Source: Sphingomonas sp. S2-65
Lineage (GTDB): Bacteria > Pseudomonadota > Alphaproteobacteria > Sphingomonadales > Sphingomonadaceae
Length of the DNA: 64,000 nucleotides
Assembly: GCF_021513175.1 (NCBI RefSeq)
Contig: NZ_CP090953.1
Coordinates: 1,359,001 to 1,423,000 of the forward strand
Reading direction: 5' to 3'
In this document: piece after piece, positions 6,025 to 51,028 of the stretch
How positions within the stretch are numbered: position 1 is the stretch's first letter
How the letters are laid out: each line of letters starts with the position of its first letter
The notes under the pieces: model-generated
The model's database searches: none
Seen by the model: the letters and a program-made list of their open reading frames with translations, nothing else
What the model was told of the DNA's origin: nothing
Position numbers and translations under genes: made by a program

Positions 6025-6081
6025 TGATCGGCGCGAGCCGCGGTCCATCGACGACGTGCACCGCCGCGGTTCTGGACTAGG

Positions 6082-6384: not shown

Positions 6385-6549
6385 TTGATCCTTCACACCG
6401 TATCGCTATGCGCGGATCGGATGGCTTGCAAGCCTGTAAGCGACGGACAGGACATAAACGGGTATTTACAAACCACCTGTTTTAGCGACACCGAACACTG
6501 AGAAATGAAATGGAAACTCGCTTCTGCTGTCCACACAACATAAGTTAAC

Positions 6550-8336: not shown

Positions 8337-8370
8337 GCCCGATTGACCCTCCGCGCGACGGAGTGCCAAG

Positions 8371-10940: not shown

Positions 10941-12451
10941 GCGGTGGCTTCCATGATCTCGAGGAACTCGGCGTGGGTCGGCGTGTCGGTGACTGCGGCG
11001 CGGATCGATTGGCGCATCGCGTGGAGGCTTCGAGTGAGCTGGGCGGTGTTGGTGCCGGTCAACGCGGGATCAATGGACGCGGGCAGGCAGTCAAAGCCGG
11101 CATAGATGGCCAGCCAACTGGCGGGAGAGAACATTTCCCAACGATATCTGAGGAATGCGCCGCGCGTGCGCCACAATTTGAGCTTCTTGTTGACGCTGAA
11201 GGGCATGTCCAGCGACCCACATGCCTTCCAAAAGGGTTCGGATCGGCCATTTAGCGCGTAATGCAGGATGAGGAAGTCGCGGACGCGCTCCATTTCTTCG
11301 GCAGTTTGCTCGTTATATTCGTCCAAAAGCGCCGTATTGCAGCTTGAATCGGGGAAAAGCTGCTTCAGGCGCTCGATTCCGGTCTCGATCAACGCGATGC
11401 TGGTCGACTCCAGGGGCTCCAAAAAACCCGATGCGAGACCGAGTGCGACGCAGTTCTTCGACCAGGCCGCGTCGCGGCGGCCGGGCGTGAAACGCAGGCG
11501 GCGCGGTTCGGTGGTAGGGCTGCCGGGCAGGTTGGCGAGCAACTCGTCCAGGGCCTCCCGCTCCGACTGGAAGCGGCTGGAAAAGACGATGCCATTGCCT
11601 TCGCGGTGACGCAGGGGAATGCGCCACTGCCAGCCGGCGGTGCGCGCGGTGACGGCGGTACAGGAAGGCGGGTCCCCTACCCGCTCGCTCTGCACCGCCC
11701 AGGCGCCGTCGCAGAACAGCCAGTGCGACCAGTCCTGATAGCCGACGCCGAGCGCCTCGCCGAGCAGGAGCGAGCGGAAGCCCGAGCAGTCGATGAAGAA
11801 GTCGCCGTCGATCCGGCGGCCATCGTCGAGGATGACGGCATCGATGAAGCCGTCCTCGCCACGCAGCGCGACATCGCCGATGCGCGCGTCAATGCGCGTG
11901 ACGCCGAGCCCTTCGGCAAAGCGGCGCATGTGCTGCGCGAACAAGGCGGCGTCGAAGTGCAGCGCCCAGTCGAAGATCGATAGCTGCGACGGCGGGTTGG
12001 GCGCGGGCAAGGTCGCATGCCCTTCCTGCGCGAGCATCGCGCCGAGCGAATAATCGCCAAGCGGCGCCGTGTCGCCGGCCGCGCGGGCGGCGAGCCAATA
12101 TTGATGGAACTCGACGCCGTTCAGATCCTGGCCGAACCGGCCGAAGGGATGGACGAAGCTGTGGCCGGGACGCAGCCAGTCGTTGAAGCGGATGCCGAGC
12201 TTGGCAGTGGCGCTGCACGCCTTCATGACGTCGGCATCCGACATGCCGAGCGCGGCGTAGAAGCGGCGGATGGTGGGGATCGTCGCCTCGCCTACGCCGA
12301 CGGTGCCGATTTCGGAGCTTTCGATCAGCGTGAAGCGGATCGGCGCGTTGCGGAAATGGTGCGCGAGCGCGGCGGCGGCCATCCAGCCGGCGGTGCCGCC
12401 ACCGACGATGACGACGTTGCGGATCGGGTGTGGAAGGCCGGGGTTCGCCAT
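10937..12451 (-). CDS. Flavin-dependent tryptophan halogenase-like protein (second of two)
   Basis: The 504-aa protein shows the same family marks as its neighbour: VVIVGGGTAGWMAA, GVGEATIPT, K84 in TAKLGIRFNDW, GWQWRIPLRHR and LEPLESTSIALI. All catalytic residues are kept. The ATG at 12451 starts the conserved Rossmann region with the usual short lead; the open frame continues upstream but that part overlaps the intergenic terminator region. Only a weak ribosome binding site (AGAAGA) is seen. The two halogenases are clearly paralogous yet quite different in sequence, so the duplication is old or they were recruited separately. Confidence 0.87.
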   Translation of the reverse strand: MANPGLPHPIRNVVIVGGGTAGWMAAAALAHHFRNAPIRFTLIESSEIGTVGVGEATIPTIRRFYAALGMSDADVMKACSATAKLGIRFNDWLRPGHSFVHPFGRFGQDLNGVEFHQYWLAARAAGDTAPLGDYSLGAMLAQEGHATLPAPNPPSQLSIFDWALHFDAALFAQHMRRFAEGLGVTRIDARIGDVALRGEDGFIDAVILDDGRRIDGDFFIDCSGFRSLLLGEALGVGYQDWSHWLFCDGAWAVQSERVGDPPSCTAVTARTAGWQWRIPLRHREGNGIVFSSRFQSEREALDELLANLPGSPTTEPRRLRFTPGRRDAAWSKNCVALGLASGFLEPLESTSIALIETGIERLKQLFPDSSCNTALLDEYNEQTAEEMERVRDFLILHYALNGRSEPFWKACGSLDMPFSVNKKLKLWRTRGAFLRYRWEMFSPASWLAIYAGFDCLPASIDPALTGTNTAQLTRSLHAMRQSIRAAVTDTPTHAEFLEIMEATA

Positions 12452-12504
12452 GGGGGTATCTGATCTTCTGATTGGCCGCTCGGCAAGGGCCCGGGCGTGA
12501 AAAT

Positions 12505-12533
12505 GGCCGGCAGCTGTTGGGGAGCTGCCGGCC
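12505..12533 (-). terminator. Intercistronic terminator-like hairpin between receptor and halogenase genes
   Basis: An 11-bp perfect stem (GGCCGGCAGCT / AGCTGCCGGCC) with a 7-nt loop is followed on the minus strand by ATTTTC. It lies between the TonB receptor stop and the halogenase start and should terminate part of the transcripts, giving more receptor than halogenase. Confidence 0.65.
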
Positions 12534-12624
12534 GAGGTCGGTCGAAGGGTGAGGAGAAAGGAGGGGGAACTCCACAACCGGATGGCCCGCGGCGCTCCCC
12601 CTCCACCATGCTTTGCATGGTCCC

Positions 12625-12643
12625 CCTCCCCGAACCGGGGAGG
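12625..12643 (-). terminator. Second stem-loop just after the TonB receptor gene
   Basis: CCTCCCC-GAACC-GGGGAGG forms a 7-bp stem 11 bp beyond the receptor stop codon. No T run follows on the minus strand, so it more likely protects the 3' end of the receptor mRNA than terminates by itself. A further small hairpin (ACCATGC-TTT-GCATGGT) lies next to it at 12606-12622. Confidence 0.4.
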
Positions 12644-12653
12644 ATTTAGATCG

Positions 12654-15600
12654 TCAGAACCGGACGCGGACGCCGGCGGAGTAGCGCGGCTCGAAGCGAT
12701 TCTGCGACGCGTACTGCCGCGAGTTCTCATCCAACTGGTAGAAGTAGCGCTCCCGCTCGCCCAACACGTTCGATCCGTTCGCATAGACGGCGAACTGATC
12801 GTTGATGTTGTAGGTGAGGTTCACGTCGACATACTGGCTGGTGTCCTGGAACAACGGGATCGTCCCGTTGATCGCCGTCGTCCCATCCATGCCGATCTGA
12901 TAGTTGCCGACCGTCGAGGCCAGACGCGCGGTGCGGTAGTTATACGCGACACGTGCCTGGAAATGATCGTCCTGATACCAGCCGACCAAGTTCACCTGAT
13001 GCTTCGAATTGTCCTGGAACGGCAGTTTCTCGCCGGTGAGGTCGAGGCGCTGCTGCTCGGAGTCCGAGAAGGTGTAGTTGGCGTCGATGCCGAAGTTGCG
13101 CAGGAACGACATGCCCGGAAGCACATCGCTGAACGCGATCTTGGCACCGGCTTCGAGACCCTGGAGCGAACCGCCATCGCCCTGGATCGGCTGGCTTACC
13201 GGCACGGTACGGCGAACCACGCCGTCCTGGTCGGCGAACTCGCCGGTGGTCTGGCCGGTAGTCACGAAGCTGTTGATGTTGAGCTTGAACAGACCAACGT
13301 TGAACAGCGTCGCGCGGCCCAGATAATATTCCAGCGACAAGTCATAGTTGTTCGAGCGCCACGGATTCAGGCCCGGGTTACCGCTGGAGCTGGCGCCAGT
13401 GACCTGACGGATGCCGCACGGTGCATCCGTCGGCCCCGGCGTTGCGGTGCACGGCGAGTCCGCGGTCGAGATGGTGAGACCGCCGCCATAGTTGCCGAGA
13501 TCCAGCGGGATCATCGTCTTGGCAAAGGCCGCACGCACGCGGAACTGCGGCGTGATGTCGTACGACGCGATGACCGTCGGCAGCCAGTCGGTGTAGGACC
13601 GCCGCGTCACCACATCGCCGGTGTCGAGGTTGGTGTCGCCATAGTTGCGGGTCTCGCCCGTCAGGTTCTGCTTCACCGTCAGCTTGGTGTTGATGACCTT
13701 CACGCCGCCGTTGATCTTGAACCCGCCGGTGGCCCAGGCGGTGTTGATGTAGGCGCTCTCTTCGATCAGATCGACGTCATAGGTGTTGCCGGGGATGATC
13801 ACTTCCTCGGTGCCGCCGAACACGCGGTTCTGGAAATCGACGACATCGTCAAAGTCGCGCGGATCGACCACCCACATGCCCGGCATGCCGCTCACAACAC
13901 CACCCCAGTTGGTCTGGAAGTGGACGTTGTTATACTGGTTGAGCTTAGTCGGCCGGTTGACGGTGTAGCCCTGGAAACAGGTCGGCGTGTTGGCCAGTCC
14001 GTCCGCACCGCAATTGCCGGGCGTGGCCCCTACGGCAGCCGCCGGATTGAACTGGGGATTGGAGACGAACTCGCCAGCCTGACACTGGTTCTGGTTCATC
14101 ACGACGTCGATCGCCTTCCACTGCGCCGAGCAGCCTTCGGCCTCACTGGCGCCGTTACCGGCGTAGAAGTTCGAGAACAGGTGGAAGTTGCGGATCTGCG
14201 TGGAGCGGTCCGAACGGCGGACGCCGACATCGACCCGGCCAAGCAGACCGAACAGGCCGCCTTCCTCGAACTCATAGGCGCCATCGGCGCGGAAGACGCC
14301 GAGATCCGAATGGTTCTCCTGGTTACCCTCCGACGAGAAGGCCGCGACCGCGTAGCTGTCGAGGTTGGACATATAGTCCTTCAGCGTCGAATTCGGGCCC
14401 AAGCCGCCGCCGATCACGCGGTCGAAGCCGCTGATCGCCGGGTTCTTGCCGCTGATGTCCAAGTGGAGCAGCGGGTCCGAGCCATAGCCGAGCGGATTCG
14501 GATTGATGTACCGCCCGCCGTTCGAGCCCACTACGCCGTTCGACAGCTGAGACGCGGGATATTGCGACGCGATGTTCGCCGGATAGAAGGGACCGCGGGT
14601 GCGGTCGGCGGGATTGCGGAACAGCGTGAAGGCACGATCAGGGCCGTATTGCCAGTTGCTGAGATCGCCCTGCACCTGACCGTTCATGCTGCGCATGTTG
14701 GCGTTCGCCTTCAGCGCACGCGCCGAGAAGGTGAAGGGGCCGTCATCGTCATAGTCGATCGACAGGTTGTAGTTGGTCGCATTGTTGCGCGCGGTGCGGT
14801 TGACCGAGAAGGAATTGAACCACCACACGTCGAGGTCGTATTCATTGACGTCGAGCCAAGGCGTGCCATTGGGCCCGTTGACGCTGGTCGGGGTGGAATC
14901 GGTCGGGCTGGTCCAGCCCAGGCCGTTCCAGCGGTTGGAGATGTTCACGCCAGACGCGCGGTTATGCTCGACTAGTTCGGTGTGGAAGACTTCGCCGGTG
15001 ACGGTGAAGCCGTCGGCGACCTTCAGCTGGATCGCGCCGTTGATGCCGAAGCGGTCGCGCTCAACCTCGCGGTTGAAGAACTCGTAGCCGTGCGGCTCGA
15101 TATAGTTCGGGCGAGTGCCGCCCCAATCGTTGACGCCGAAGATGCTGCCGCCGGTGCCGGCATAGCTGTTGCCCAGGTTCGCCTTGCTCTTCGCGGCGCT
15201 GACCATCACGCCGATGGTGTCGTTGCGCCAGCTCGCGAGGCCGCTGAACAGATAGTCGTTATGCTTGGTCTGGGTGCCGCGGGCATATTCGCCCTGACCC
15301 GAGAGCGTCAGGCCGCTGTGCAGATCGAACGGACGGCGCGTGCGCAAGTCGATCGTGCCCGAGATGCCGGACAGCGCGTTGCGCAGTTCCTGCGTCTTGT
15401 AGACCACGACCGCGTTCATCAGCTGCGCGGGCACGTCGTTCAGGTTCGGCTGCGCCGAACCGAGATTGCCCGGCGACAGATATTGTTCGCCGTTGAGCAG
15501 CGTGATCACCTGCGGCAGGCCGCGGATGTTGACGCTGGTACCCTCGCCCGCGTTGCGCTGGATCTGGACGCCGGAGATGCGCTGAAGCGCGTCGACGATG

Positions 15601-35063: not shown

Positions 35064-35138
35064 TGGGGCGTCGCCAAGTGGTAAGGCACCGGTTTTTGGT
35101 ACCGGCATTCGTAGGTTCGAATCCTGCCGCCCCAGCCA
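35064..35138 (+). tRNA. tRNA-Gln (anticodon TTG)
   Basis: A full cloverleaf can be drawn: acceptor TGGGGCG/CGCCCCA, D-arm GCCAAGTGGTAAGGC, anticodon stem CCGGT/ACCGG around loop TTTTGGT giving anticodon TTG, T-arm GTAGG-TTCGAAT-CCTGC, discriminator G and encoded CCA. The gene remains complete because the island carries a copy of the 3' end. Confidence 0.97.
35116..35138 (+). repeat. attL: 23-bp direct repeat at the 3' end of tRNA-Gln
   Basis: The sequence from the T-loop to the CCA end of tRNA-Gln (starting TTCGAATCC, ending CCCCAGCCA) is identical over 23 bp to 51006-51028. Flanking bases differ on both sides, which defines the recombination core. Confidence 0.93.
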
Positions 35139-36468: not shown

Positions 36469-36876
36469 AGCGGGTTCATGTTGGGGAGCGCGGTCGAACC
36501 GACGAGTTCTCTCAGTCAACCTACAGATTCTCCCGGCTACAGAGGCAGGCCAGAAAACAGCTGGCTTCCGTTATGGAGCGGAGACAGGTAACGTTGACCA
36601 ACCGTCCGGCAAATCTGCGCAAGGCCTATCAGCATCGAGAAGACGGTCGCCCTCGGTGCTGAATGCGCCGGGAGCTTATCGTATCAGTCGTAGGCCCTTC
36701 TTAGCACCAGGCCTGTAGCGCGCTTGGGATCAATAGCGCCGCGCAGAGAGTCGAGAAACTTGCCGCGAGAAAACTTGCGCTGAAGTGGCTTACCGGTAGG
36801 AGTAAGTCGCAGTGGCACAAGGTTGAGTGTCGGACCTCGGGTTGCTCAGTCTGCGGTAGCCAGCGATAAGGGCATT
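36469..36876. other. Gap between hypothetical gene and hsdR
   Basis: About 400 bp without a convincing gene. It should hold the promoter of the hsd operon. A TTG-initiated in-frame extension of hsdR begins at 36823, but the GTG at 36877 is better supported. No clear repeat or hairpin is seen. Confidence 0.4.
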
Positions 36877-39609
36877 GTGAACACGACGCCGGAAGCTCTA
36901 GCCCGCAAGGTCATCGATGGGCAGCTCGCGGCAGCGGGATGGGTGGTGCAGGATCGCGCCGAATTGAACCGAACTGCATCGCTGGGCGTCGCGGTACGCG
37001 AGTTTCCATTGGCGACTGGTCCGTGCGACTATCTGCTGCTAGTTGCTGGCAAAGCCTGCGGAGTTATCGAGGCGAAGGCGGCGGGTACCACCCTGTCCGG
37101 CGTTGCCGAACAGGCGCGCGGATACCAGCCGCAACCGCAACAGCCACTCGCAAAGTGGAGCGACCCGTTGCGCTTCGACTACGAAGCTTCAGGGACGGAG
37201 ATCCTGTTCGCGGATCGTGTCGATCCGCTACACCGCTCCAGGCATGTCTTTGCCTTCCACCGGCCGGAGACACTGCACGAGTGGCTGAAGGCGGGATCGT
37301 CGCTACGCGCACGGCTGACTGAGATGCCGGCGCTAGTATCCGACGGTCTGCGCGATTGCCAAGTCGAGGCGGTCGAGGGACTAGAGGCCTCGCTGGCCAG
37401 CGACCGACCGCGCGCGTTCGTGCGAATGGCGACGGGGGCGGGCAAGACCTTCACCGCCGCCACGCTCGCCTATCGCCTGCTCGCGCATGCCGATGCGCGG
37501 CGCATCCTGTTCCTGGTCGATCGCAACAATCTCGGGCGGCAGACGCTCAAGGAGTTCCAGACCTTTCGCCCGCCGGGCACCGGGCGGCTGTTTACCGAAC
37601 TCTACAACGTCCAGCGGCTCGGTCCCGCGGGACTCGATGCCCCCGCCAAGGTCGTCATCTCGACTATCCAGCGCGTCTTTGCGCAGCTGACCGGCACCGA
37701 CCTGTCCGAGGAGGACGAGGAAGCCAGCGATTTCGAACGCCGCTGGACCGCGCCGCCTAAGACCGTGACCTACAGCGCCACGCTCCCGCCCGAGACGTTC
37801 GACATCGTCGTGGTCGATGAATGTCACCGCTCGATCTATGGCAGCTGGCGCCAATTGCTCGACTATTTCGATGCGCAGATCATCGGGCTGACCGCCACGC
37901 CCACCGTGCAGACCGCCGCGTTCTTCGATGAGAATATCGTGGCCGACTACCCATATGAAAAATCGATCGCCGACGGCGTCAACGTGCCGTTCGACATCTA
38001 CCGCATCAGGACCCAGATCGGCGAACATGGCGGGCGCGTCGAGAAGGGCTACACGCTCCCCGTCCGCGATCGTCATACCCGTGCCCAGACCTATCGCCTG
38101 CTCGACGACGACCTGACCTATACGCCGCAGGATCTCGATCGCAGCGTGATCGCGCAGAACCAGATCCGCACCGTGCTGGAGGCGTATCGCGACACGCTGT
38201 TCACCGAACTCTTCCCCGGCCGCACCGAAGTCCCCAAGACGCTGATCTTCGCGAAGGACGACAACCACGCCGAGGAGATCGTCCGCACCGTCCGCGAAGT
38301 GTTCGACCAGGGCAATGATTTCGCCAAGAAGATCACCTACAAGGTCGGCGCGAAATATGCCGAGACGGTGATTGCCGAGTTCCGCAACGCCTACAACCCG
38401 CGCATCGCCGTCACCGTCGACATGATCGCCACCGGCACCGACGTGAAGGCGATCGAGGCGCTGATCTTTCTGCGCGACGTGCGCTCGGCGGTGTATTTCG
38501 AGCAGATGCGCGGGCGCGGCGTGCGGACGATCGATTCAGCGACGCTCGCCACGATCACGCCCGACGCGCGCGTCAAGGACCGGTTCGTGCTGATCGACGC
38601 GGTCGGCGTCACCGACAGCCTGAAGACGCAGGCGATCCCGCTGGAACGCGAGCACGGTGTCGCATTCGACAAGCTTCTCGAACAGATCGCCAGCGGCCGC
38701 AGCGACGAGGATGCCGTCGCCACGCTGGCCGGTCGCCTCGCCAGGCTCAACCGCAAGCTCGACGATGCGGGCAAGGCACGGATCGAGGCGATCGCCGGCA
38801 AGCCCCTGACGGCGCTGGCGGGGGAGCTGGTCGATTCGATCAATGCCGACGCCATCGAGGATGCCGCGCGCCAGCGGCACGGCGCCACCGTGACCGACGC
38901 CGAGATCGAGGCCGTCGCCACCGAACGGCGCGAGGCGGCGCTGGCCGCCTATAACAACCCGGCGCTGCGCCGCGTGCTGATCGAGCTGAAAAAGGCGTCG
39001 GAGGTGATCATCGACGACATCAGCCGCGACGTCGTCATCTCGTCCGCGTGGGACGCGGGGCAGGCGACGACGATGACGACCGATTTCGGCCGCTTCCTCG
39101 ACGAACACCGCAATGAACTGACCGCGCTGCGCATCCTCTACGGCCTGCCCGCCGCGACGAAGCGGCTGACCTATGACAGCCTGGTGGATCTGCGCGTCGC
39201 GATGATGCGGCCGCCCTGGCTGCTCGAGCCGCTCGCGCTGTGGAGCGCCTATCGCCGTCTGAGCGCCGACAAGGTGCGCGCCAACCCGGCAAAGACGCTG
39301 ACCGACATCGTCGCGCTGGTGCGCTTCGCCATGGGGACGAGCGAGACGCTGATACCGCTGTCCTCGGACATGGCGGGCCGGTTCAACCTGTGGCTGGGCC
39401 GCGAACAGCGCGCCGGGCGCATCTATACGCAGGAGCAGCTCGGCTGGCTGGAGGCGATCCGCGACTATCTCGCCGCCAACATCGAGCTGACCACGGCCGA
39501 CATCCAGGACCAGTTCGGCGCACGCGGCGGCATCCTCGGCGCACGCAGGGCTTTCGGTCCCCGACTCGATGTTCTACTCGACGAGCTTCAGGACGCGCTG
39601 GTGGCGTAA
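36877..39609 (+). CDS. hsdR: Type I restriction enzyme, R (endonuclease/translocase) subunit
   Basis: The 910-aa protein has an N-terminal nuclease core (GPCDYLLLVAG and GVIEAKAAG, the D...E-x-K catalytic pattern near residues 51-67), then a superfamily II helicase/translocase with Walker A MATGAGKTFT (about 190), DECHRSIYG (about 330), the later helicase motifs TVDMIATGTDVKAIEAL and MRGRGVRTID, and a C-terminal domain of the EcoEI-R type. It cleaves unmodified DNA after ATP-driven translocation as part of the HsdR2M2S complex. The GTG at 36877 with AAGGG upstream is preferred to the TTG at 36823. Codon use is GC-rich like the chromosome. Confidence 0.93.
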   Translation: MNTTPEALARKVIDGQLAAAGWVVQDRAELNRTASLGVAVREFPLATGPCDYLLLVAGKACGVIEAKAAGTTLSGVAEQARGYQPQPQQPLAKWSDPLRFDYEASGTEILFADRVDPLHRSRHVFAFHRPETLHEWLKAGSSLRARLTEMPALVSDGLRDCQVEAVEGLEASLASDRPRAFVRMATGAGKTFTAATLAYRLLAHADARRILFLVDRNNLGRQTLKEFQTFRPPGTGRLFTELYNVQRLGPAGLDAPAKVVISTIQRVFAQLTGTDLSEEDEEASDFERRWTAPPKTVTYSATLPPETFDIVVVDECHRSIYGSWRQLLDYFDAQIIGLTATPTVQTAAFFDENIVADYPYEKSIADGVNVPFDIYRIRTQIGEHGGRVEKGYTLPVRDRHTRAQTYRLLDDDLTYTPQDLDRSVIAQNQIRTVLEAYRDTLFTELFPGRTEVPKTLIFAKDDNHAEEIVRTVREVFDQGNDFAKKITYKVGAKYAETVIAEFRNAYNPRIAVTVDMIATGTDVKAIEALIFLRDVRSAVYFEQMRGRGVRTIDSATLATITPDARVKDRFVLIDAVGVTDSLKTQAIPLEREHGVAFDKLLEQIASGRSDEDAVATLAGRLARLNRKLDDAGKARIEAIAGKPLTALAGELVDSINADAIEDAARQRHGATVTDAEIEAVATERREAALAAYNNPALRRVLIELKKASEVIIDDISRDVVISSAWDAGQATTMTTDFGRFLDEHRNELTALRILYGLPAATKRLTYDSLVDLRVAMMRPPWLLEPLALWSAYRRLSADKVRANPAKTLTDIVALVRFAMGTSETLIPLSSDMAGRFNLWLGREQRAGRIYTQEQLGWLEAIRDYLAANIELTTADIQDQFGARGGILGARRAFGPRLDVLLDELQDALVA

Positions 39610-39624
39610 GTGGGGGCGCGTGAG

Positions 39625-41040
39625 ATGGCGAAGCGGGTGACGGCGGACGGGCCGGTCGATGGTCCTTGGACGTTGCCAAAGGAATGGTATTGGGAGCGGT
39701 TGGGCTCGTTTGTCTCGAAGGGTGGTACTTCGGTTACGCCAGGTCGAACACCAGATGAAAAATTTCAGCTTTACAGTGTTCCTAGCCATCCAACCGGTCA
39801 CCCAGAAAGTATCGTCGGTCGCGAGATAGGGTCGGCGAAGCAGGCCGTTGCCGCTAACGACATTCTACTCTGCAAGATCAACCCCAGAATCAATCGTGTA
39901 TGGAAGGTAATTGATCACGACACTGGTCGCTTGATCGCTTCTACGGAATGGATTCGATTTGCTCCTGATGAGCGGGTGGAGCCCGATTATCTTCGCTATT
40001 TTCTGATGCGAGACGCAGTTCGTAACTACCTTGCAGCGAACGCTTCGGGTGTAGGGGGATCGCTAACCCGTGTTCGACCATCGGTGGTTGAACCCATTCC
40101 TTTCCCGCTGACCTCAAGGGACCAACAGCGTCGGGTCGTTACCCGTATCGACGAACTGTTCGCCGAGATCGACGATGGCGAAGCGGCGCTGGCGCGGGCG
40201 CGAGACGATCTGGCGACGTGGCGCAAGGCGCTGCTTAAGGCCGCCGTCACCGGCGAGCTGACGGCCGACTGGCGGACCGCCAATGCGTCCACCGAGACGG
40301 GCGCAGACCTTTCTGACCGCATTCTCGCGGAGCGGGCACGTCTTGCATCTAAACGTCTCGGCAAGCGGCGCGACAAAGCGCCAGAAGAGATCACGCCTGC
40401 GCAGCAACGGCTTCTATGGCCTGCCCCAGACGGCTGGACTTGGATGCAGCTGGGAGCTTTTTCTTTCGTCACAAAGCTGGCTGGCTTCGAATATACGAAG
40501 TTCGTTCGATATGACGACGACGGTGACCTGCGGGTAATTAAGGCGGAAAATGCCGGCCCGCACGGGTTTAAGGAGACGAACTATTCACGCGTTCGATCTT
40601 CCTCCGTGGCTGAACTGACGCGCTCGCGCTTGCATGGTGGCGAACTGCTCATGGTGTTCGTGGGGGCGGGAACCGGAAACGTCGCGACAGTGCCAGAGGG
40701 TGAGGACTTTTTCCTAGGACCGAACATCGGCATGATGCGGGTGGAAACTGACACCGTCTCGCCTCGCTTCGTTGAGCTGTTCCTCAGATCGCCAGTCGGG
40801 AAGGCCCTCGCGACTGCAGCGATGAAGGCTGTAGCTCAGCCATCGCTCTCGATGGGGACGATCCGCCAAATACCGGTGCTGCTGCCGCCTGCGGCGGAAC
40901 AGGGAGAAATATTGCGCCGGGTGGAACAGGCCCTGACAGCTGCTGCCGATTGTGGAACTGACGTTCGCAACCAGCAAAGCGCCGCCGCCACCCTCCGCCA
41001 ATCCATTCTTGCCGCCGCCTTCCGTGGAGAACTCGCATGA
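39625..41040 (+). CDS. hsdS: Type I restriction enzyme, S (specificity) subunit
   Basis: The 471-aa protein has two target-recognition domains (about 10-160 and 255-425), each followed by the conserved helical spacer: LTSRDQQRRVVTRIDELFAE with LLKAAVTGELTADW, and LPPAAEQGEILRRVEQAL with SILAAAFRGELA. It sets the bipartite DNA target recognised by the methylase and nuclease. The recognition domains are visibly AT-richer than the spacers, as expected for domains exchanged by recombination. A GTG at 39610, right after the hsdR stop, is an alternative start. Its end overlaps hsdM by four bases. The order R-S-M is less common than M-S-R. Confidence 0.92.
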   Translation: MAKRVTADGPVDGPWTLPKEWYWERLGSFVSKGGTSVTPGRTPDEKFQLYSVPSHPTGHPESIVGREIGSAKQAVAANDILLCKINPRINRVWKVIDHDTGRLIASTEWIRFAPDERVEPDYLRYFLMRDAVRNYLAANASGVGGSLTRVRPSVVEPIPFPLTSRDQQRRVVTRIDELFAEIDDGEAALARARDDLATWRKALLKAAVTGELTADWRTANASTETGADLSDRILAERARLASKRLGKRRDKAPEEITPAQQRLLWPAPDGWTWMQLGAFSFVTKLAGFEYTKFVRYDDDGDLRVIKAENAGPHGFKETNYSRVRSSSVAELTRSRLHGGELLMVFVGAGTGNVATVPEGEDFFLGPNIGMMRVETDTVSPRFVELFLRSPVGKALATAAMKAVAQPSLSMGTIRQIPVLLPPAAEQGEILRRVEQALTAAADCGTDVRNQQSAAATLRQSILAAAFRGELA

Positions 41041-42494
41041 ACGAACAGGCGCTGGTCGCGAAGGTGTGGAACTACGCGCACGTCCTGCGCGACGACGGCG
41101 TGTCCTATGGCGACTATCTTGGCCAAATCAGCTTTCTGCTGTTTCTCAAGATGGACAAGGAGCGCACCGACGCGCTGGGCGAGGCCTCTGCGTTGCCGGC
41201 CGATGCCAACTGGGACACGCTGGCGGGTCGCGCGGGCGAGGATCTCGAGCGGACCTATCGCCGCATCCTCGACACACTGTCGAAGCGCACCGACATAGTC
41301 GGCACGCTGTTCCTGAAGGCCGAGAACAAGATCGGCGATCCGGCCAAGCTCCAGCGGCTGGTGACGCTGATCGGCGCCGAGACGTGGATGGGCCTCAACG
41401 TCGACGTGAAGGGCACGATCTACGAAGGGCTGCTGGAGCGTAACGCGGGCGAGGTGAAGTCAGGCGCTGGCCAGTATTTCACGCCGCGTCCCCTGATCGA
41501 AGTCATCACCCAGCTCGTCGATCCCGAGCCGGACGACACCGTCCACGATCCCGCGGTCGGCACCGGCGGCTTCCTGCTCGCCGCCTACGACCATATGAAG
41601 GCAAAGCCCGCTGCCAAGGACCGGCGGGTCGCCGCCGCGCTGCGCGCCGACAAGCTGTCGGGCACTGACATCGTCGCCGAGGTGGTGCGGCTGTGCGCGA
41701 TGAACCTCTACCTGCACGGAATCGGCGGCGCGACTTCACCGGTGCAGCAGAAGGACGCGCTGCTCGATCGCGGCGACAAGGCATTCGACGTCATCCTGAC
41801 CAACCCGCCCTTCGGCAAGCGCCAGTCGTTCCGCATTGTCCGCGAGGATGGCGGGATTGACAGCGAGCGCCAGGATTATGTCCGCGACGATTTCACCGTC
41901 ACCACGGGCAACAAGCAGCTGAACTTCCTCCAGCACATCATGTCGATCCTGAAGGTCGGCGGCAGTGCGGCCGTCGTGATGCCGGACAATGTTCTATTTG
42001 AAGGCGGTGCAGGCGAGACGCTGCGCAAGCGACTGCTCGAGGAGTTCGACTTTCACACTCTGCTGCGGCTTCCGACCGGCATCTTCTACAGCCAGGGAGT
42101 GAAGGCCAACGTACTATTCTTCGACCGCGCTACGCCCGGCACAGGCATCGCAACCCGCGCCCTGTGGGTATACGATCTGCGCACGAACCAGCGCTTCACC
42201 CTGCGCGAGCGCCCGCTGAAGCGGGCGGACCTCGACGATTTCGTAGTGAGCTACGGCTCCAAATACGGGCGCGCTAAGCGGGCAGAAACCGGGCACTTTC
42301 GGCGCTTCGAATACGAGGAACTTGTAAAGCGCGACAAGTTGAACCTCGACCTGTTCTGGCTGAAGGACGCCAGCGCCACCGACCCGGACACGCTGCCCCC
42401 TCCCGCCGAGATCGCCGCAGAGATCGTCGACAGCCTGGAGACAGCATTGGAGAAGTTTCGGAGCGTCGCCGCTAAGCTAAGTCCGCAGACCTGA
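41037..42494 (+). CDS. hsdM: Type I restriction enzyme, M (adenine-N6 methylase) subunit
   Basis: The 485-aa protein has the HsdM N-terminal helical domain (LRDDGVSYGDYLGQISFLLFL), the SAM motif DPAVGTGGFLLAAYDHM (about 177) and the catalytic NPPF at residues 256-259 (LTNPPFGKR). It methylates adenine in the target sequence to protect host DNA and forms the core of the restriction complex. The start overlaps hsdS (ATGA), showing coupling. It is the last hsd gene; a stem GGGGAGG/CCTCCCC at 42535-42555 may terminate the operon. Confidence 0.94.
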   Translation: MNEQALVAKVWNYAHVLRDDGVSYGDYLGQISFLLFLKMDKERTDALGEASALPADANWDTLAGRAGEDLERTYRRILDTLSKRTDIVGTLFLKAENKIGDPAKLQRLVTLIGAETWMGLNVDVKGTIYEGLLERNAGEVKSGAGQYFTPRPLIEVITQLVDPEPDDTVHDPAVGTGGFLLAAYDHMKAKPAAKDRRVAAALRADKLSGTDIVAEVVRLCAMNLYLHGIGGATSPVQQKDALLDRGDKAFDVILTNPPFGKRQSFRIVREDGGIDSERQDYVRDDFTVTTGNKQLNFLQHIMSILKVGGSAAVVMPDNVLFEGGAGETLRKRLLEEFDFHTLLRLPTGIFYSQGVKANVLFFDRATPGTGIATRALWVYDLRTNQRFTLRERPLKRADLDDFVVSYGSKYGRAKRAETGHFRRFEYEELVKRDKLNLDLFWLKDASATDPDTLPPPAEIAAEIVDSLETALEKFRSVAAKLSPQT

Positions 42495-42992: not shown

Positions 42993-43531
42993 TTGGTGGT
43001 TACGTTCGGGTCGGTTCAGTGGGTCAGTCGCTTGACGCGCAGCTCAAAGCGCTGGCGGAAGCTGGATGCGAAAAGGTGTTTTCAGAGGAGCGAAGCGGGA
43101 CCAGTACACTGGGACGCCAAGAGCTCGAGCATGCGCTCTCTTTCGTGCGAGAAGGCGATGCACTGGTGGTGACGCGTCTCGACGGTCTCGCGCGTTCTGC
43201 TGCTGATCTGCATGCTATCGTAAAGCGCCTGACCGAGTGAGGAGTGGCGTTCCGGTGCTTGCAACAATTGGGCATGGATACAGCCACGGGCACGGGCAAG
43301 CTATTGCTGAGGGTACTGGCGTCTATCGCAGAGTTCGAGGCCGACATCCACCGGGAGCGTCAGCGCGAAGGGATCGACCGGGCGAAAGCCAATGGTGTCT
43401 ATCGCGGCCGCAAGCCATCGATTGATCTCGCCGCCGTGCGTTCTCTGCGAAACGAGGGCATTGGACCATCGGAGATCGCAAAGCGCCTCGGAATTGGGCG
43501 CGCGAGCGTTTATCGCGTGTTGCGTGGCTGA
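42993..43531 (+). pseudogene. Serine resolvase/invertase, inactivated
   Basis: Translation in one frame gives GYVRVGSVGQSLDAQLKALA, then LVVTRLDGLARSAADLHAIV, a TGA at 43238-43240, and after it GVAFRCLQQLGMDTATGTGK, LASIAEFEADIHRERQREGI and a C-terminal helix-turn-helix RLGIGRASVYRVLRG. The family sequence at the stop is usually Arg, so CGA has become TGA. At the N-terminus the catalytic Ser of RVST is Gly, and no ATG is in frame (a TAG lies just upstream). Three lesions show the gene is dead. Confidence 0.8.
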
Positions 43532-44609: not shown

Positions 44610-45194
44610 CTAGCCGCCTTGATCGTCTCGGTTGGACTTAGGCTTGCCGAAAAACTCTATAGTTGGGCGAGGTACGATCATGTCTGTGATGTCGCGACTC
44701 CCAAAGTTCGTCATGACCTTGTAAGCGGCTCGATAGCGATCTTCATGATCTACAATTTTCGCCGGCATTGAGTGAATAAGACCGGCAGGTAGCTCACCGC
44801 CATCGTGATCGATAATGAACGGGTCAAACAGGTCCACCAGATCATCCAGGCTGAGCTCTCCGTTGACAGCATCATAGACCGCTTGCGACATAGTGCGAAC
44901 GTCTGGAGCGTCGAAGGTGTATCCGTTGTTTCGGAGGAAGAGCTCCATGCCGATCAGAGCCACGCGCTTATTGCCCTGAATGAACGCGTGCGCCTCTGCG
45001 ATCGCCAGTAGCGTCATGCAGGCGAGGACAATAATGTCATCCTCGCCATAAGCATGAGCGTTGATAGGACGCCCACATGCAGCCTCAAGCGCACCTGGAA
45101 TCGCAATCATGTGCGGCTCACCAGTGCGCTCTACGATGCCTTTGTTGAGGGCGACCAGCTCAGGCGGCAGTAGCCAGACTGGCTCTTGGCTCAT
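44610..45194 (-). CDS. Fic/Doc-family toxin
   Basis: The 194-aa protein carries the Fic-domain active site H69-A-F-I-Q-G-N-K-R77, matching HxFx(D/N/G)xNKR. Upstream helices (LEAACGRPINAHAYGEDDII, LACMTLLAIAEA) match the Doc subgroup, which phosphorylates EF-Tu, while other Fic enzymes AMPylate targets. It overlaps the upstream 49-aa gene by four bases, so it is the toxin of a toxin-antitoxin pair. The C-terminal 60 residues beyond the Fic core are not typical of phage P1 Doc (126 aa). Autorepression by the antitoxin is likely through the palindrome upstream. Confidence 0.82.
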   Translation of the reverse strand: MSQEPVWLLPPELVALNKGIVERTGEPHMIAIPGALEAACGRPINAHAYGEDDIIVLACMTLLAIAEAHAFIQGNKRVALIGMELFLRNNGYTFDAPDVRTMSQAVYDAVNGELSLDDLVDLFDPFIIDHDGGELPAGLIHSMPAKIVDHEDRYRAAYKVMTNFGSRDITDMIVPRPTIEFFGKPKSNRDDQGG

Positions 45195-45374: not shown

Positions 45375-45924
45375 TGTGATGACGGTTGTGTCAATATATC
45401 GAGTTAGACAACACTCGAGTCAAGAATTGATTGATAAAGTCAAAAAAGTCAGCGCGTCTGACTCAGGCCGGACACGTTTCGTCCTGTTGCGCACGCTTCG
45501 TATGAGAGCCACAGAATCACACCTGAGTGAGGCGCCGGCGAGCAGCCAAGAGCCGCTGCGCCATCAAGCGGCTGAACGCGTCCAGCAGGAGCTGAGTAGA
45601 CGCGCAATCGAACTCCCCCCATCTCAAGCGAACCTCACGTGTCTCGATCACAAGCCAAGGCCGACACTGGCAACATCGCTGACGCGAGGCTGGTTCGCCT
45701 TCATGGCCGTGCAACCCAGGAGTGCGTGTCCATACACGAACCCTGCGCAGCGCGTCCTGGCTGCCAGGCTATGAGGAAGCCAAGCGTACCGCGAGCGGGA
45801 ATGAGGGTGTATCGGAAACCACCGATTACGTGCCACTTACCCGACATGTATCGGAATATAGGTTGACGATAGTTCCGATACGCTGCTACTTACGAGCCAC
45901 ACTTTCGATACAGGAGTCGTTCGC
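45375..45924. other. 550-bp gap with a res-like site, no convincing gene
   Basis: The region between the toxin-antitoxin operator and the intact resolvase has no frame with a good start or recognisable family. Its last 120 bp hold the res-like repeats listed separately; the rest may be eroded sequence from an older insertion. Confidence 0.4.
45808..45912. repeat. res-like recombination site upstream of the intact resolvase
   Basis: TGTATCGGAA occurs at 45808-45817 and again at 45847-45856, where it pairs with inverted TTCCGATACG at 45873-45882 to form a 36-bp dyad; a further half-site TTTCGATACA lies at 45903-45912, just before the resolvase ATG. Three clustered sites of this kind match the subsite layout of resolvase res regions. 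Confidence 0.6.
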
Positions 45925-46500
45925 ATGGCCCGCACGTTCGCATACTGCCGCGTCAGCACCGCTGATCAGACCACCGAGAACCAAGTGCGGGAGATTGATG
46001 CAGCGGGGTTCAAGGTCGAACCTAAGCGCGTCATCACCGAGACTGTCTCAGGTTCCGTTGCAGCGATGGAGCGCAAGGGTTTCGCTAAGCTGGTAGATCG
46101 ACTTGAGGACGGTGACGTTCTGATCGTCACTAAGCTGGATCGCCTAGGCCGCAATGCCATGGACGTTCGTGCGACTGTGGAGGCGTTGGCAGCGCAAGGT
46201 GTAAGGGTGCACTGCCTTGCCCTTGGCGGGGTAGATCTCACTAGCGCAGCTGGGAAGATGACAATGGGCGTGCTGTCGGCGGTCGCTGAGTTCGAGCGGG
46301 ACCTGCTGATCGAACGGACACAAGCTGGCCTTTCGCGTGCCAAGGCAGAGGGTAAGGCATTGGGTCGTCCTTCTGCACTCAATATGGAACAGAAGCAGCT
46401 CGTGATTGCCAGCCGCAGAGAGGGTGTATCTCTCGGAGCATTGGCGAAGCAGTTTGGCGTTAGCCGTGCGGCGATTCAGCGAATCGAGAAGCAGACTTAG
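45925..46500 (+). CDS. Serine recombinase (resolvase/invertase family), intact
   Basis: The 191-aa protein has the resolvase catalytic domain with YCRVSTADQ (nucleophile S11), [35 protein letters not shown] and [20 protein letters not shown], then a C-terminal helix-turn-helix ([20 protein letters not shown]). It should cut and rejoin DNA at the adjacent res-like repeats and repress its own gene. CAGGAG precedes the ATG. It could be a transposon relic, since no transposase is nearby. Confidence 0.9.
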
Positions 46501-46706
46501 GTAGTCTAAGGATCAGGTAGGAACGGTATAGTCAATATGTCATACCTCAATCGCGACTAAAGGATGGGGCAAGCGCCCATTGATCCCAAATTAGTTGCCG
46601 CTCTCGGTTCAGGGCTGAATTTCATGCTAAATTTCGCCAGATTGCTACTTACAGTTGGTGCGGCGATCCGATAGCTTGTCACCCTGTCAACGTTGAAGGT
46701 AGCTCT
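46501..46706. other. 206-bp AT-rich gap upstream of the reverse transcriptase, possible ncRNA or promoter
   Basis: No coding frame is seen. A small hairpin ATGGG-GCAAGCG-CCCAT occurs at 46564-46580. Defence reverse transcriptases of several groups have a template or effector ncRNA immediately upstream, so this gap is a candidate place for one; the sequence alone does not show it. Confidence 0.3.
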
Positions 46707-48341
46707 ATGCCGGGGTTCGGTCTCGACAAGCCGATAGTGACTAAGATGGTCAACGACTTAGACGTTGCACACGTCCGTCAGGACCAATTTTCAGATTTTT
46801 TCATTCTGCCGCAGTTGGATGCGATTTATGCACACTGCGCAGACAAGCTGAAACAATCCGTTGCGACTAAGCTGAATGCCAGTAGTTACGGACCGAAACC
46901 ACCGATTGAGCTAGAGGTCCCGAAGTCGCTTCGTGTTTCGGCAAAAAGCGCATCGATAATTGGTCCGAACTATTTCCGACCAGGTACTGTGCTATACCCA
47001 GAAGACAGGATATTATATCATTTTATTGCGCAGGTGGCCGCGCCTGTAGTCGAAGCAGCTATGGATCGAACACGGGTTTTCAGCCACAAACCTTTGTCCA
47101 TCGCGGGAGCAGGTTTCGAGCAGGCTGCAACCCAGTGGGAGTCGCTGAAATCGAAATTCGAAAAATCTGTGAAAACGGGCAAATATACAATCGCGCTGAA
47201 GAGCGACGTTGCCCAGTACTTTACCAGCATAAATCAGCACGAATTAGTTAATCAGCTCGAACATCAAGGGCTCTCCCCTGAAATGGTCAAGTTTACCGAA
47301 AAGTTTTTGACGGGACTGACCCTTGATAGAAGCTCCAGGGGACTTCCGCAGGGGATATATGGGTCTGACCTGCTCGGAAACAGCTATCTTGCTGGTATAG
47401 ACGAGTTTATCTCAGATCAGGGCTTCGTTCACTTTCGCTATGTTGACGACATTTACATTCTATTTCAAACGGCAGAAGACTTTAAGTCTTTCTTTCCTGA
47501 GTATGTAAAACGCCTTCGGGAATATGATTTAGCGCTGAACGAAAGCAAAACGTTTGCTACTGCGCCGGCTAAGCTTCTCCGTGAAGAGACCGAGCTAGAT
47601 AAAGCTATTCAAGCAGCTAAAGAGGAGGCAGCCGAGAAGCTTACTGACTATGAAGTCACGGTAACTGAAAGCGGACCTTACGGCGACACCGTAGAAGACA
47701 TCCTCGAACTGTCACCTGATGAAGAGGAGGTGGAGCTCGAAGCAACGAAAGCGGTGTTCGAAAAGCTAGACGACTTCAGTGGGGAAGAACGACACCGGGC
47801 TGAAAGCTTTTGCCTGAGCTTCTTTCGAAGAGCTAATGACCCTATTGCCATCCCCTATGTCGCGAAGCGGTGGGCGCGTAATCCAGATCGGGCTAGAGAA
47901 TACGCGTTGTACCTCAATCGCTTTGCTCATGAAAAAAAGCACGCAAAGATCATCGATAAGATGATCTATAGCAGTGCTGAAACGATGATAGACTATCAAT
48001 GGGCTTGGGCGGCATTTGTGATGCGAAGAATGGTTAGTGTATCGTCAGAGCTACTCACTGCCACTTTTGAACTGAGTAAGGATGCTTCTAAAAACGAAGT
48101 AGTGCGGTCTCTGTTGGTTTATCCTGTTTGCGCTCATGGGTCAGCGCCGCGAAAGAAGCACGTCCGAGACCATTACAGCACGAGCCCTCTGCTAGTTCAA
48201 TTAGCCATCATCCATTGCGGCAGTCACTTCACTAGCGGTGAGCGGAGCGCGCTGATGGCCACGGCTCAAGGTCATGGAGAACTGCAAGCGATGATGTGCG
48301 ATGCATTCAAAGCTGAGCAGAAGGCTGCCGCTTCTGCCTGA
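46707..48341 (+). CDS. Reverse transcriptase of the Abi/UG (defence) type with a helical C-terminal domain
   Basis: The 544-aa protein has RT motifs LYPEDRILYHFIAQVAAP (N-terminal RT region), ALKSDVAQYFTSI (catalytic D167), RGLPQGIYGSDLLGNSYL, and FRYVDDIYILF (catalytic Y245-V-D-D248). The intron-associated maturase and retron VTG motifs are absent. From about residue 340 the protein is acidic then helix-rich (FFRRANDPIAIPYVAKRWAR, YALYLNRFAHEKKHAKII, WAWAAFVMRRM), resembling the alpha-helical repeats of abortive-infection RTs such as AbiA, AbiK and Abi-P2. It probably makes DNA in an anti-phage response. The gene is markedly AT-richer than the flanks. Exact RT group is not assigned. Confidence 0.82.
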   Translation: MPGFGLDKPIVTKMVNDLDVAHVRQDQFSDFFILPQLDAIYAHCADKLKQSVATKLNASSYGPKPPIELEVPKSLRVSAKSASIIGPNYFRPGTVLYPEDRILYHFIAQVAAPVVEAAMDRTRVFSHKPLSIAGAGFEQAATQWESLKSKFEKSVKTGKYTIALKSDVAQYFTSINQHELVNQLEHQGLSPEMVKFTEKFLTGLTLDRSSRGLPQGIYGSDLLGNSYLAGIDEFISDQGFVHFRYVDDIYILFQTAEDFKSFFPEYVKRLREYDLALNESKTFATAPAKLLREETELDKAIQAAKEEAAEKLTDYEVTVTESGPYGDTVEDILELSPDEEEVELEATKAVFEKLDDFSGEERHRAESFCLSFFRRANDPIAIPYVAKRWARNPDRAREYALYLNRFAHEKKHAKIIDKMIYSSAETMIDYQWAWAAFVMRRMVSVSSELLTATFELSKDASKNEVVRSLLVYPVCAHGSAPRKKHVRDHYSTSPLLVQLAIIHCGSHFTSGERSALMATAQGHGELQAMMCDAFKAEQKAAASA

Positions 48342-48555
48342 AGCCGTAGACTTCACGAAAGCGAGCGGAGCGCGACCGACCTCTCCCCAGGCGCTTAGAA
48401 GGACAGGCCAGAAATCATCTCATGGGCCTCTATTTTCAACCCTCTCGCCAACGGCGCTGGGAGTGTCCCTTCTACCTCACACGGTGCGAGCGCCACGCCG
48501 CAGGGCAGTTTCGTTCTACGTGACAATTGCGGCCTGACCGACACGGGGAAAGAAG

Positions 48556-49119
48556 ATGCTGAACCGAACCTCGCCTCTGCGGGTTGAAATAAACCCGTGG
48601 ACCTTAGACCACACATTGACGGAGGTGATGCAGCTCCGTGGTGCTTACGTCGCCGCAATGGGAACGGTGGAGACGATCTTAACCGAGCTGGCGATACGCG
48701 CCTCAAAGCACGAGACCTACGTCGGGCTACGCGATCGCTTTCCGTCTCGACGTACCCATCGGCTCAAGTATCTCGAAAACCTATGTGACGCATCCGGCCC
48801 GCTGACTGAGCACCGAATGCTCATACTCGGCATTATCCGGCGGTTCAGCGATGGTCTGGCTCTCCGTGACATTCTTGCCCACGGTCGAATGCAGGTGCTT
48901 ACCGGACCAGGGGACGATGCGAGTATCCAATTGGAAGATTACAGCGTGGCAGGCGAGTTCATCCAGTTCCGCCGAGACCAGTACACGCTAAAGACACTCC
49001 GTGCTCGGGTGTACAGCACTACGCGGCTGAGCCGCTGTGTCGACTCGCTATACGCGCGGTTGGGCGAACTGTTGCCGCCCGTTCACGGAGAGTACCAGGG
49101 GACCACATCCATACCCTGA
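48556..49119 (+). CDS. Hypothetical protein with a HEPN-like R-x4-H motif, likely partner of the reverse transcriptase
   Basis: The 187-aa protein is predicted mostly helical. R104-D-I-L-A-H109 (LALRDILAHGRM), in the second half of a helical bundle, matches the R-x4-6-H catalytic motif of HEPN ribonucleases, and the preceding TVETILTELAIRAS helix is in the usual place. GGGGAAAGAAG precedes the ATG. It lies 214 bp downstream of the RT on the same strand. HEPN domains serve as toxin effectors in many abortive systems, including RT-linked ones, so a toxin role is plausible; it is inferred from one motif and the context. Confidence 0.55.
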   Translation: MLNRTSPLRVEINPWTLDHTLTEVMQLRGAYVAAMGTVETILTELAIRASKHETYVGLRDRFPSRRTHRLKYLENLCDASGPLTEHRMLILGIIRRFSDGLALRDILAHGRMQVLTGPGDDASIQLEDYSVAGEFIQFRRDQYTLKTLRARVYSTTRLSRCVDSLYARLGELLPPVHGEYQGTTSIP

Positions 49120-49161
49120 TGAAGGGCACAGCCCGACTGTCAATTTATCTGTCAACAATCC

Positions 49162-49205
49162 AGCCCATGCGAATAGCTAAGGCTATGTTTTTGCTGGGCT
49201 TTCTC
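49162..49205 (+). terminator. Possible terminator after the HEPN-like gene
   Basis: An outer stem AGCCCA/TGGGCT and inner stem ATAGC/GCTAT form an imperfect hairpin followed by TTTCTC, 42 bp after the stop of the HEPN-like gene. The bulge makes this a moderate candidate. Confidence 0.4.
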
Positions 49206-49209
49206 ATGT

Positions 49210-49232
49210 TGGTCGGGGAGGCAGGATTCGAA
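49210..49232 (-). other. tRNA-Pro-like 3' fragment inside the island
   Basis: On the minus strand this reads TTCGAAT-CCTGC-CTCCCCG-A-CCA: T-loop, T-stem 3' strand, acceptor strand, discriminator and CCA. Beyond the T-loop the sequence no longer pairs, so only the T-loop-to-CCA part is present. That is exactly the segment kept as the attachment repeat of this island in tRNA-Gln, so it looks like an attachment relic of a related element that used a tRNA-Pro-like gene. Confidence 0.6.
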
Positions 49233-49245
49233 AGAGCAGTAGGGG

Positions 49246-50928
49246 TCAAGCTGCGGGATGTGGGACGTCGATACGGGGATATTCAATCAATGCGATAATC
49301 TCGGCGCGTCTTACCATTGCGATGCCGTCGGGATTGTAGACCTTGTAGGTGAAGCCGCGTTCGTGGCCAAATATCTGTGCCCAATCGTTTTCCGGTACTC
49401 CGGCACGCTCCATAATTCGGGTAACATTCTTGCGAAACGAGTGGAACGTCTTCGTATCGTCGTCGAACCCTTTCATCATCTTGAACCGGGAAAACTCTCG
49501 GCTTGCGTCGGCGCCCGGCTTCTTGCCAGGGCCTTCAGGGTTGAAAGTGGGCCACAGCCGGTCACCCTGAGCGCCACGATCTCGCGATAACAACCAGCGC
49601 AGTTCGGAGTGCACCGGGATCTTGCGGTTACCGGCCGGTGTCTTCGAGTCTTCGACTTGGAAGTAGTGGACAACCTGCCCACCTTCGTTGCTCTCGCGGA
49701 CCTGGCCCCAGGTCAACGAAGCAGCTTCGTCCATTCGCATGCCGGTGAACATGCCCACCAAGATGACCTCCAGAAGGTCTTGGCGTTTGGGACGTGGATC
49801 AAGCAGGCGTCGAAGTTCGTCATCCTCCCAAGCCACGTATGGCTTCACGTTAACGCCTGCGCGGAGCTTCTTGTGGAAGCCTTCGAAGGGATTTTCACCC
49901 TCGCAGTGCCCGCGCTTCTTGGACCAGAGCCAGAGCTCTTGAAGCACTTGGAGGTGGCGGTTCATGGTACCATCCGAGAGACCTCTGTCGCGGTTACCGT
50001 AGCGCTCGATCAACTTTGACCACGGCAGTTTCCGACCATCTGGCGACCGAGCCCAGTTCGGATCGAGCAATCGCACTGTGTCAAAGAAGGTGGCGGCGTC
50101 CTCGTGACGAACCAGTCGAATGGACTGGTCGTCGAAGAAGCCGCTGAACAGCCCAAAAGTGGCGCGCTTCTGCTGCTCGGTATTCGTGACCTTCCCACTG
50201 CTGCGGCCCGCCAGCCATTGCTTCATGAACTGGTCGACGAGCTCCGAGAAGGGCACGTCTCTGCGGCGGGCCGTGGGCACTCCATTGGCGAGAGCATGTC
50301 GAACGACTTCGGTGGTGGGCCGAGGATCAATCTCGCCTTCGTCGGCCCGGATACTGACGTCTCTTGCATCAAGCACAGCCGTGGCTGCATCGCGGGCGAG
50401 TTGACGGAACCAAAACGCGCTCCGATCGACCTCTTGGCCTCGGTTCGACAGCATGCGCTCGATTGGACCTTCAAACCGGTCGAGCTGACCGGCACGCACC
50501 TCCCGGTTCATTTCACGAAGTTCGGTCCGGCGTTTTGCGAGGCTTTCAAAGTGAGCGGCGCGATCCGCCTTAAAGGCTGCATTATCGCGTACCTCAAGCT
50601 CGCGTGAGACCTGTTCGTAGACTGCGCGGATGATTGCCTGCTTCAAATGTTCTGAAGGCTCGCTGGCAATCGACGAGCTAGTAGAGATCTCCAGAGGATG
50701 CACCGCTTCCCCTCGCCGCAGAGATGCCCATTGCTCTTCAAGTGAGTCGAGGAGCGCGATCGCCTTGGTGGTGGCAGCGCGATCATCAGTTGTCCCAAGC
50801 GACTTAGTGACAACGTCGCGCCCGAACGCCGCTTGAACATCGCTAGGTACATGCTTCCGAAACTGCCACATCGCAGAGTTCGGTCGCTTGAACATATAGC
50901 TTGTGAGTACGGTTGCTGTAGCAGTCAT
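49246..50928 (-). CDS. Tyrosine recombinase (island integrase)
   Basis: The roughly 560-aa protein has an N-terminal SAM-like DNA-binding region and the tyrosine recombinase catalytic domain: R398 in MFTGMRMDEAASLTW, H496-S-F-R499 in FHSFRKNVTRIM, a second His in FGHERG and the nucleophilic Tyr in YKVYNPDG. It should integrate and excise the island at tRNA-Gln. The ATG at 50928 (or GTG at 50949) has no Shine-Dalgarno sequence and sits among TGTAGCA repeats, so integrase binding could repress its own gene. It ends 14 bp from the tRNA-Pro-like fragment. Confidence 0.93.
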   Translation of the reverse strand: MTATATVLTSYMFKRPNSAMWQFRKHVPSDVQAAFGRDVVTKSLGTTDDRAATTKAIALLDSLEEQWASLRRGEAVHPLEISTSSSIASEPSEHLKQAIIRAVYEQVSRELEVRDNAAFKADRAAHFESLAKRRTELREMNREVRAGQLDRFEGPIERMLSNRGQEVDRSAFWFRQLARDAATAVLDARDVSIRADEGEIDPRPTTEVVRHALANGVPTARRRDVPFSELVDQFMKQWLAGRSSGKVTNTEQQKRATFGLFSGFFDDQSIRLVRHEDAATFFDTVRLLDPNWARSPDGRKLPWSKLIERYGNRDRGLSDGTMNRHLQVLQELWLWSKKRGHCEGENPFEGFHKKLRAGVNVKPYVAWEDDELRRLLDPRPKRQDLLEVILVGMFTGMRMDEAASLTWGQVRESNEGGQVVHYFQVEDSKTPAGNRKIPVHSELRWLLSRDRGAQGDRLWPTFNPEGPGKKPGADASREFSRFKMMKGFDDDTKTFHSFRKNVTRIMERAGVPENDWAQIFGHERGFTYKVYNPDGIAMVRRAEIIALIEYPRIDVPHPAA

Positions 50929-50948
50929 AGCAGCAGTCGATTGTAGCA
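50917..50948. repeat. Two TGTAGCA repeats near attR, overlapping the integrase start
   Basis: TGTAGCA occurs at 50917-50923 and 50942-50948, 58-90 bp inside the right repeat, matching the three copies near attL. Confidence 0.5.
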
Positions 50949-51005
50949 CCGATATTCGACTGTCAACCAGCGTAAGGCTCCCCAGAAGAACAGCGTTATA
51001 GCAGC

Positions 51006-51028
51006 TTCGAATCCTGCCGCCCCAGCCA
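51006..51028 (+). repeat. attR: second copy of the 23-bp tRNA-Gln 3' repeat
   Basis: Identical over 23 bp to 35116-35138 and in the same orientation. The bases before it (GCAGC) do not restore the tRNA T-stem, so only the left copy belongs to a functional tRNA. Confidence 0.93.

Follow-up and report, generated by a model that had tools for sequence, protein, structure and literature searches.

Reverse transcriptases (RTs) of the unknown groups (UG) and of abortive infection (Abi) systems fall into classes that one earlier study reportedly defined. A feature of Class 1 is a helical-repeat domain after the RT domain, the RT-alphaRep build of the AbiK and DRT4 type (DRT, defense-associated reverse transcriptase). 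The HEPN motif has the form R-x4-6-H. In AbiA a HEPN domain is fused to the RT protein, as outlined in PMC8934634, and P2-like phages and P4-like satellites are described in PMC9122126 as carrying defense hotspots. Here we examine an RT gene and the gene that follows it in a 64,000-nucleotide stretch of the Sphingomonas sp. S2-65 genome (assembly GCF_021513175.1, contig NZ_CP090953.1, positions 1,359,001 to 1,423,000), called the window below; coordinates without a locus name are positions in it. An earlier note on this DNA had proposed that the two genes, encoding an RT and a small HEPN-like protein, form one module, a candidate new anti-phage system. Judged by its sequence, the RT is a member of a known, little-studied group, UG20, within a divergent sphingomonad clade. 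The arrangement of serine recombinase, cargo slot, HEPN-like gene and tRNA-Pro remnant has its counterpart at one end of prophage-type elements of related bacteria. The two are probably distinct genes brought together in a single cargo slot, the RT being a lone single-gene DRT, and the proposed two-gene RT-HEPN defense system is not supported.

The RT gene (46707-48341, plus strand) encodes 544 residues with D167, the box Y245-V-D-D248 and C-terminal helical repeats, and its neighbor on the same strand encodes 187 residues with R104-x4-H109; reading frames, strand and lengths stand as the earlier note gave them. The C-terminal half of the RT model is helical, again as noted (predicted local distance difference test score, pLDDT, 87). 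The RT, for which that note could name no type, matches the PADLOC model RT_UG20 with 546 bits (E 2e-164, residues 4-534), the runner-up being UG21 with 180 bits. UG20 was likewise the top PADLOC model for 10 of the 10 other UG20-type RTs checked, with 624-760 bits in eight RTs outside the window clade and 568 and 526 bits in two inside it. Pfam finds RVT_1 (E 3.6e-17), with DUF1678 sub-threshold. The observation that the RT has neither a maturase nor a retron signature was borne out. A group II intron maturase was rejected, there being no Pfam maturase domain and 72 bits to TIGR04416 against a cut-off of 300, and a retron was rejected with 39 bits to the NCBIfam retron St85 model against a cut-off of 235; an msr-msd RNA was sought through Rfam only, with no match. 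Across NCBIfam the scores, all below the models' own cut-offs, were 88 bits for Drt5, the 72 already given for group II, 63 for Drt3a, 42 for Drt4, 35 for AbiA and 25 for Drt3b.

A midpoint-rooted tree restricted to 37 UG20-type rows places the window RT within a 23-row clade whose branch is long and fully supported. The rows of the tree and its alignment comprise 26 of 58 database RT hits and 11 loci, omitting the partial L008 and also L054, whose gene is annotated as shortened; L005 is flagged as a long branch. Metagenomic relatives close to the window RT share 57-85% identity with it. The three aspartates D167, D247 and D248 show no variation across the 37 aligned proteins, and Y245 is identical in 36 of them. 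Two other tyrosines are conserved, Y325 in 37 of 37 and Y41 in 35 of 37.

The HEPN-like gene (48556-49119, plus strand) is the last gene at a prophage-type end associated with tRNA-Pro. Ninety bases past it lies a 23-base remnant of a tRNA-Pro 3' end (49210-49232, minus strand), one mismatch from the tRNA-Pro(TGG) of the genome. On its other side a variable cargo slot (46501-48555), which here holds the RT and the 206-base gap upstream of it, reaches to a serine recombinase gene at the opposite edge (45925-46500, plus strand; Pfam Resolvase, E 2.8e-37). Three other loci, those of the closest located relatives of the HEPN-like gene, share the tRNA-Pro site, and L043 is the nearest of them to the window. 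In L043 a 19-base remnant also lies 90 bases past the HEPN-like gene, and the distance from the end of that gene to an intact tRNA-Pro 3' end is 75 bases in L057 and 109 bases in L058. The HEPN-like gene, with tRNA-Pro 3' ends or remnants beside it, is therefore a marker of the end at which a tRNA-Pro element attaches. L043 is a contig from a viral collection with phage head genes; L057 also carries phage head genes and is the same DNA as the viral contig L042 (100% over 8,564 bases), so that these two were counted once.

The contents of the slot differ from locus to locus. In L057 it holds the Shedu protein SduA (8369-9996, E 2.4e-125) and in L058 PDC-M53A and PDC-M53B (10540-12943, 1.5e-12 and 5.8e-27). 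In L043 (slot 5871-8001) there is a 277-residue gene (6760-7593, minus strand) with no match in Pfam, PADLOC or NCBIfam and a match to one PHROG of unknown function; by its place in the slot it becomes a candidate defense gene. A direct comparison of L043 with the window gave 85% DNA identity over 694 bases at the recombinase and upstream of it (window 45808-46501), 73% over 604 bases at the HEPN-like gene and 40 bases downstream, and no similarity between the two genes. The recombinases at the other slot edge in L043 and L057 lie in the same orientation as that of the window and share 93% and 37% protein identity with it, and L058 has a different serine recombinase in the opposite orientation. 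The slot beside tRNA-Pro thus seems to collect different defense genes, a pattern that rests on four loci, the window, L043, L057 and L058. Three more distant members of the 187-residue family are without a tRNA-Pro site: L046 lies by tRNA-Asn, L047 by tRNA-Ala, and L045 has no tRNA within 19.9 kb. Base composition changes at the slot as well. G+C content is 48-49% in the RT and the gap before it, and 58-60% in the HEPN-like gene, the recombinase and the gap downstream of the RT, a break of the kind expected for an insert.

These swaps bear directly on the earlier proposal of a single module. In such a two-gene abortive-infection module, a HEPN RNase would be triggered by RT-made DNA. The genes do lie on the same strand, 214 bases apart, and the fused HEPN domain of AbiA (PMC8934634, in outline) offers a precedent. 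Yet a UG20 RT is absent from all five other genomes that match the 187-residue family strongly (G104, G240, G236, G916 and G1145), by a query that recovered UG20 in G000 and G867; a further seven, whose HEPN-like matches were weak (E 8e-6 to 7e-4), are left out of this count. In the reverse direction, neither of the two further genomes with UG20, G867 and G538, holds the family, the window genome being positive. Nor did a profile search at E up to 1 find it at any of 13 UG20 loci elsewhere (6.9-19.9 kb each), in a run that recovered 8 of 8 positive loci. Ten of the 13 come from genomes (L001-L008, L048 and L051, with L008 partial) and three from plasmids (L052-L054), and they amount to 12 independent loci since the RTs of L002 and L004 are near-identical. 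The longest contigs of 21 HEPN-like clusters and 58 RT clusters have no size in common, a weak comparison in which most contigs were short, only the longest were listed and the 58th RT cluster was compared by eye. Across the homologous loci and genomes covered, then, the conserved neighborhood is absent, the outcome that the earlier note itself had named as refuting its proposal. With other cargo beside the small gene in L043, L057 and L058, and with the difference in G+C content between the two genes, we consider the two-gene module very improbable. Taken together, the lack of co-occurrence and the swaps at the tRNA-Pro end identify the window RT as lone UG20 cargo.

One observation weighs against this separation. 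Upstream of the HEPN-like gene, L043, L057 and L058 have in common a leader of about 93 bases. In the window, BLAST matches no more than the final 20 bases of this region, and a forced alignment gives partial similarity. The window gene, without a clear copy of its relatives' leader, may have lost its own and be read through from the RT, as a two-gene module would allow. If so, this would be a local arrangement and no conserved module.

Whether the 187-residue protein is a HEPN protein, as the earlier note suggested, has a mixed answer. R104 and H109 do not vary in any of 22 aligned rows, nor in any of the 21 rows of a broader set that extends down to about 20% identity (with five loci added to 15 of 21 HEPN-like hits), so the R-x4-H motif is not a matter of chance, and the model is helical (pLDDT 87). 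That part of the suggestion stands; the family assignment itself found no profile or fold to match. No HEPN match was obtained in Pfam (single-sequence and 22-member scans), NCBIfam, PADLOC, PHROGs or PDB sequences, and a search with the model matched no HEPN fold, within what Foldseek can find. Motif and helices fit, and they justify the term "HEPN-like" and nothing stronger. By eye, two distant HEPN-like relatives adjoin a protein resembling DUF4238 (L046, 2632-4299; L040, 73-1836); NCBIfam gave no match for this neighbor in L046.

A different alternative gives the RT an RNA template, which could be its own noncoding RNA (ncRNA) or come from the cell; the helical domain would then serve as a scaffold, comparable to the ncRNA-dependent DRTs. 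Several searches bear on it. An Rfam scan of 45800-49400 gave no match, and neither the 206-base nor the 214-base gap flanking the RT folds better than shuffled sequences (z 0.12 and 0.60). Among three UG20 genes with 71-72% DNA identity, the best match between 600-base flanks was 13 bases (E 0.04). The flanks of L002 and L004 are alike because they are the same element, their RTs being 94.5% identical. Across UG20 loci the gaps beside the gene are small, sometimes near zero, and not on one constant side. An RNA inside the RT gene, or one that changes fast, may still accompany UG20, and we judge a templating RNA unlikely. More doubtful still is a combined version specific to the window clade, in which a canonical, group-II-like RT core on a Class 1 helical body would be an RNA-templated single-gene enzyme, spread through an as yet undescribed defense hotspot of sphingomonad prophages, situated at their tRNA-Pro end with the HEPN-like toxin as fixed outer gene. 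An RNA template inside an AbiK/DRT4 scaffold would, if true, link two known DRT modes.

The surroundings of UG20 genes elsewhere bear on whether the RT is a defense gene at all. In L004 (1360-13131) a BREX operon includes the UG20 RT, with pglZ on one side of it and brxD on the other, in the order BrxC, PglZ, RT, BrxD, BrxHI, and by its reading frames the PglZ-side part of this arrangement recurs in L002; the two are metagenome-assembled genomes assigned to Betaproteobacteria and Planctomycetota. The Lamassu genes LmuA and LmuB adjoin a plasmid UG20 RT of Sinorhizobium medicae (L053, 7593-11431, minus strand), and an HNH/type IV restriction gene adjoins that of L051. By annotation, DarT, macro-domain and SIR2 genes are neighbors in L054 and toxin-antitoxin genes in L052. 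The UG20 genes of L001, L003, L005 and L048, judged by eye, lie among seemingly chromosomal genes. This last group would suit an RT that is a neutral or element-serving passenger with no role in defense, as would our search of one literature collection, which listed no relevant paper on UG20 as an RT or DRT and no phage test of UG20. Against a passenger stand the defense genes beside UG20 in several loci, the full-length Abi/DRT fold, the active-site aspartates kept in every aligned protein, and a distribution that is rare and patchy: of 397 genomes drawn from the family one has UG20, and there are two holders each among 385 genomes from the class, 396 from the order and 191 from the genus, in draws that overlap and each include the window genome as one holder. 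We give the passenger explanation only a very slight chance.

For the window RT itself, DNA synthesis directed against phage is the probable role. Acting alone, as a single-gene DRT with the RT-alphaRep build, it might oligomerize, and it could prime template-free DNA synthesis on a tyrosine of its own, for which Y325 and Y41 are candidates. By analogy with what is reported for DRT4, a phage factor would let the DNA product accumulate, and infection would be stopped. The HEPN-like protein, for its part, would function independently of the RT; it might be an RNase-type toxin or an exclusion factor of the prophage.

All of this lies within a larger integrative element. A tRNA-Gln(TTG) gene at 35064-35138 and a 23-base copy of its 3' end delimit a 15.9-kb element, the direct repeats, left and right attachment repeats of the island, lying at 35116-35138 and, identical, at 51006-51028 (both plus strand). 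Between them are type I restriction-modification genes (36823-42494, plus strand; hsdR 36823-39609, hsdS 39610-41040, hsdM 41037-42494), a Fic/Doc-type protein (44610-45194, minus strand; Pfam Fic, 1.6e-7; DOC_P1 above its cut-off), the segment with recombinase, RT and HEPN-like gene, and the tyrosine integrase of the island (49246-50949, minus strand; Pfam Phage_integrase, 1.2e-7, and DUF6538, 1.6e-14; a PHROG integrase). The defense-rich integrative island of the earlier note is thus confirmed and, since it holds the end of a tRNA-Pro element, it is composite. A 95-residue reading frame at 43244-43531 (plus strand) looks by eye like the C-terminal portion of another serine recombinase, possibly left over from a further insertion.

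The two-gene system, plausible as it was, lacks support and drops from the list of candidates. What remains is a cleaner target, UG20, an RT with helical repeats that probably works as a single gene. Attention also turns to the slot beside tRNA-Pro at the prophage end and to uncharacterized cargo such as the 277-residue gene of L043.

Among described groups, the UG20 RTs (PADLOC PDLC03758) come closest. They provide the best profile for the window RT over its whole length, as a stand-alone gene, and several members lie near defense genes; the window RT differs in belonging to a divergent clade with 29-35% identity to the others and in its lower score (546 bits, against 624-760 for eight others). 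In structure, its predicted model aligns nearly full length with DRT6 (which we take to be UG12), AbiK, DRT4 (UG15), AbiA and Abi-P2, over 385-459 residues, and shares with them the RT plus helical-repeat build that is the Class 1 feature. DRT4 and DRT6 are also single genes. The structural alignments with these five proteins show 11-15% identity, and the RT core of the window protein is closer to group II RTs. DRT9, DRT2 and DRT10, which depend on an ncRNA, have an RT catalytic core in common with it (aligned for DRT9 and DRT2), but the alignment with DRT9 and DRT2 is restricted to the RT domain (252 and 256 residues), and no partner RNA was found near UG20.

The 187-residue protein resembles HEPN ribonucleases in its helical character and in an R-x4-H at a helix end that is invariant in relatives, and differs from them in matching no HEPN family by profile or fold. 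As for the slot, it differs from the P2 and P4 hotspots, as these are outlined in PMC9122126, in its phages and hosts, in lying at a tRNA-Pro end with the HEPN-like gene outside the slot, and in being represented by four loci; what it has in common with them is a fixed place in a phage element at which anti-phage genes are exchanged.
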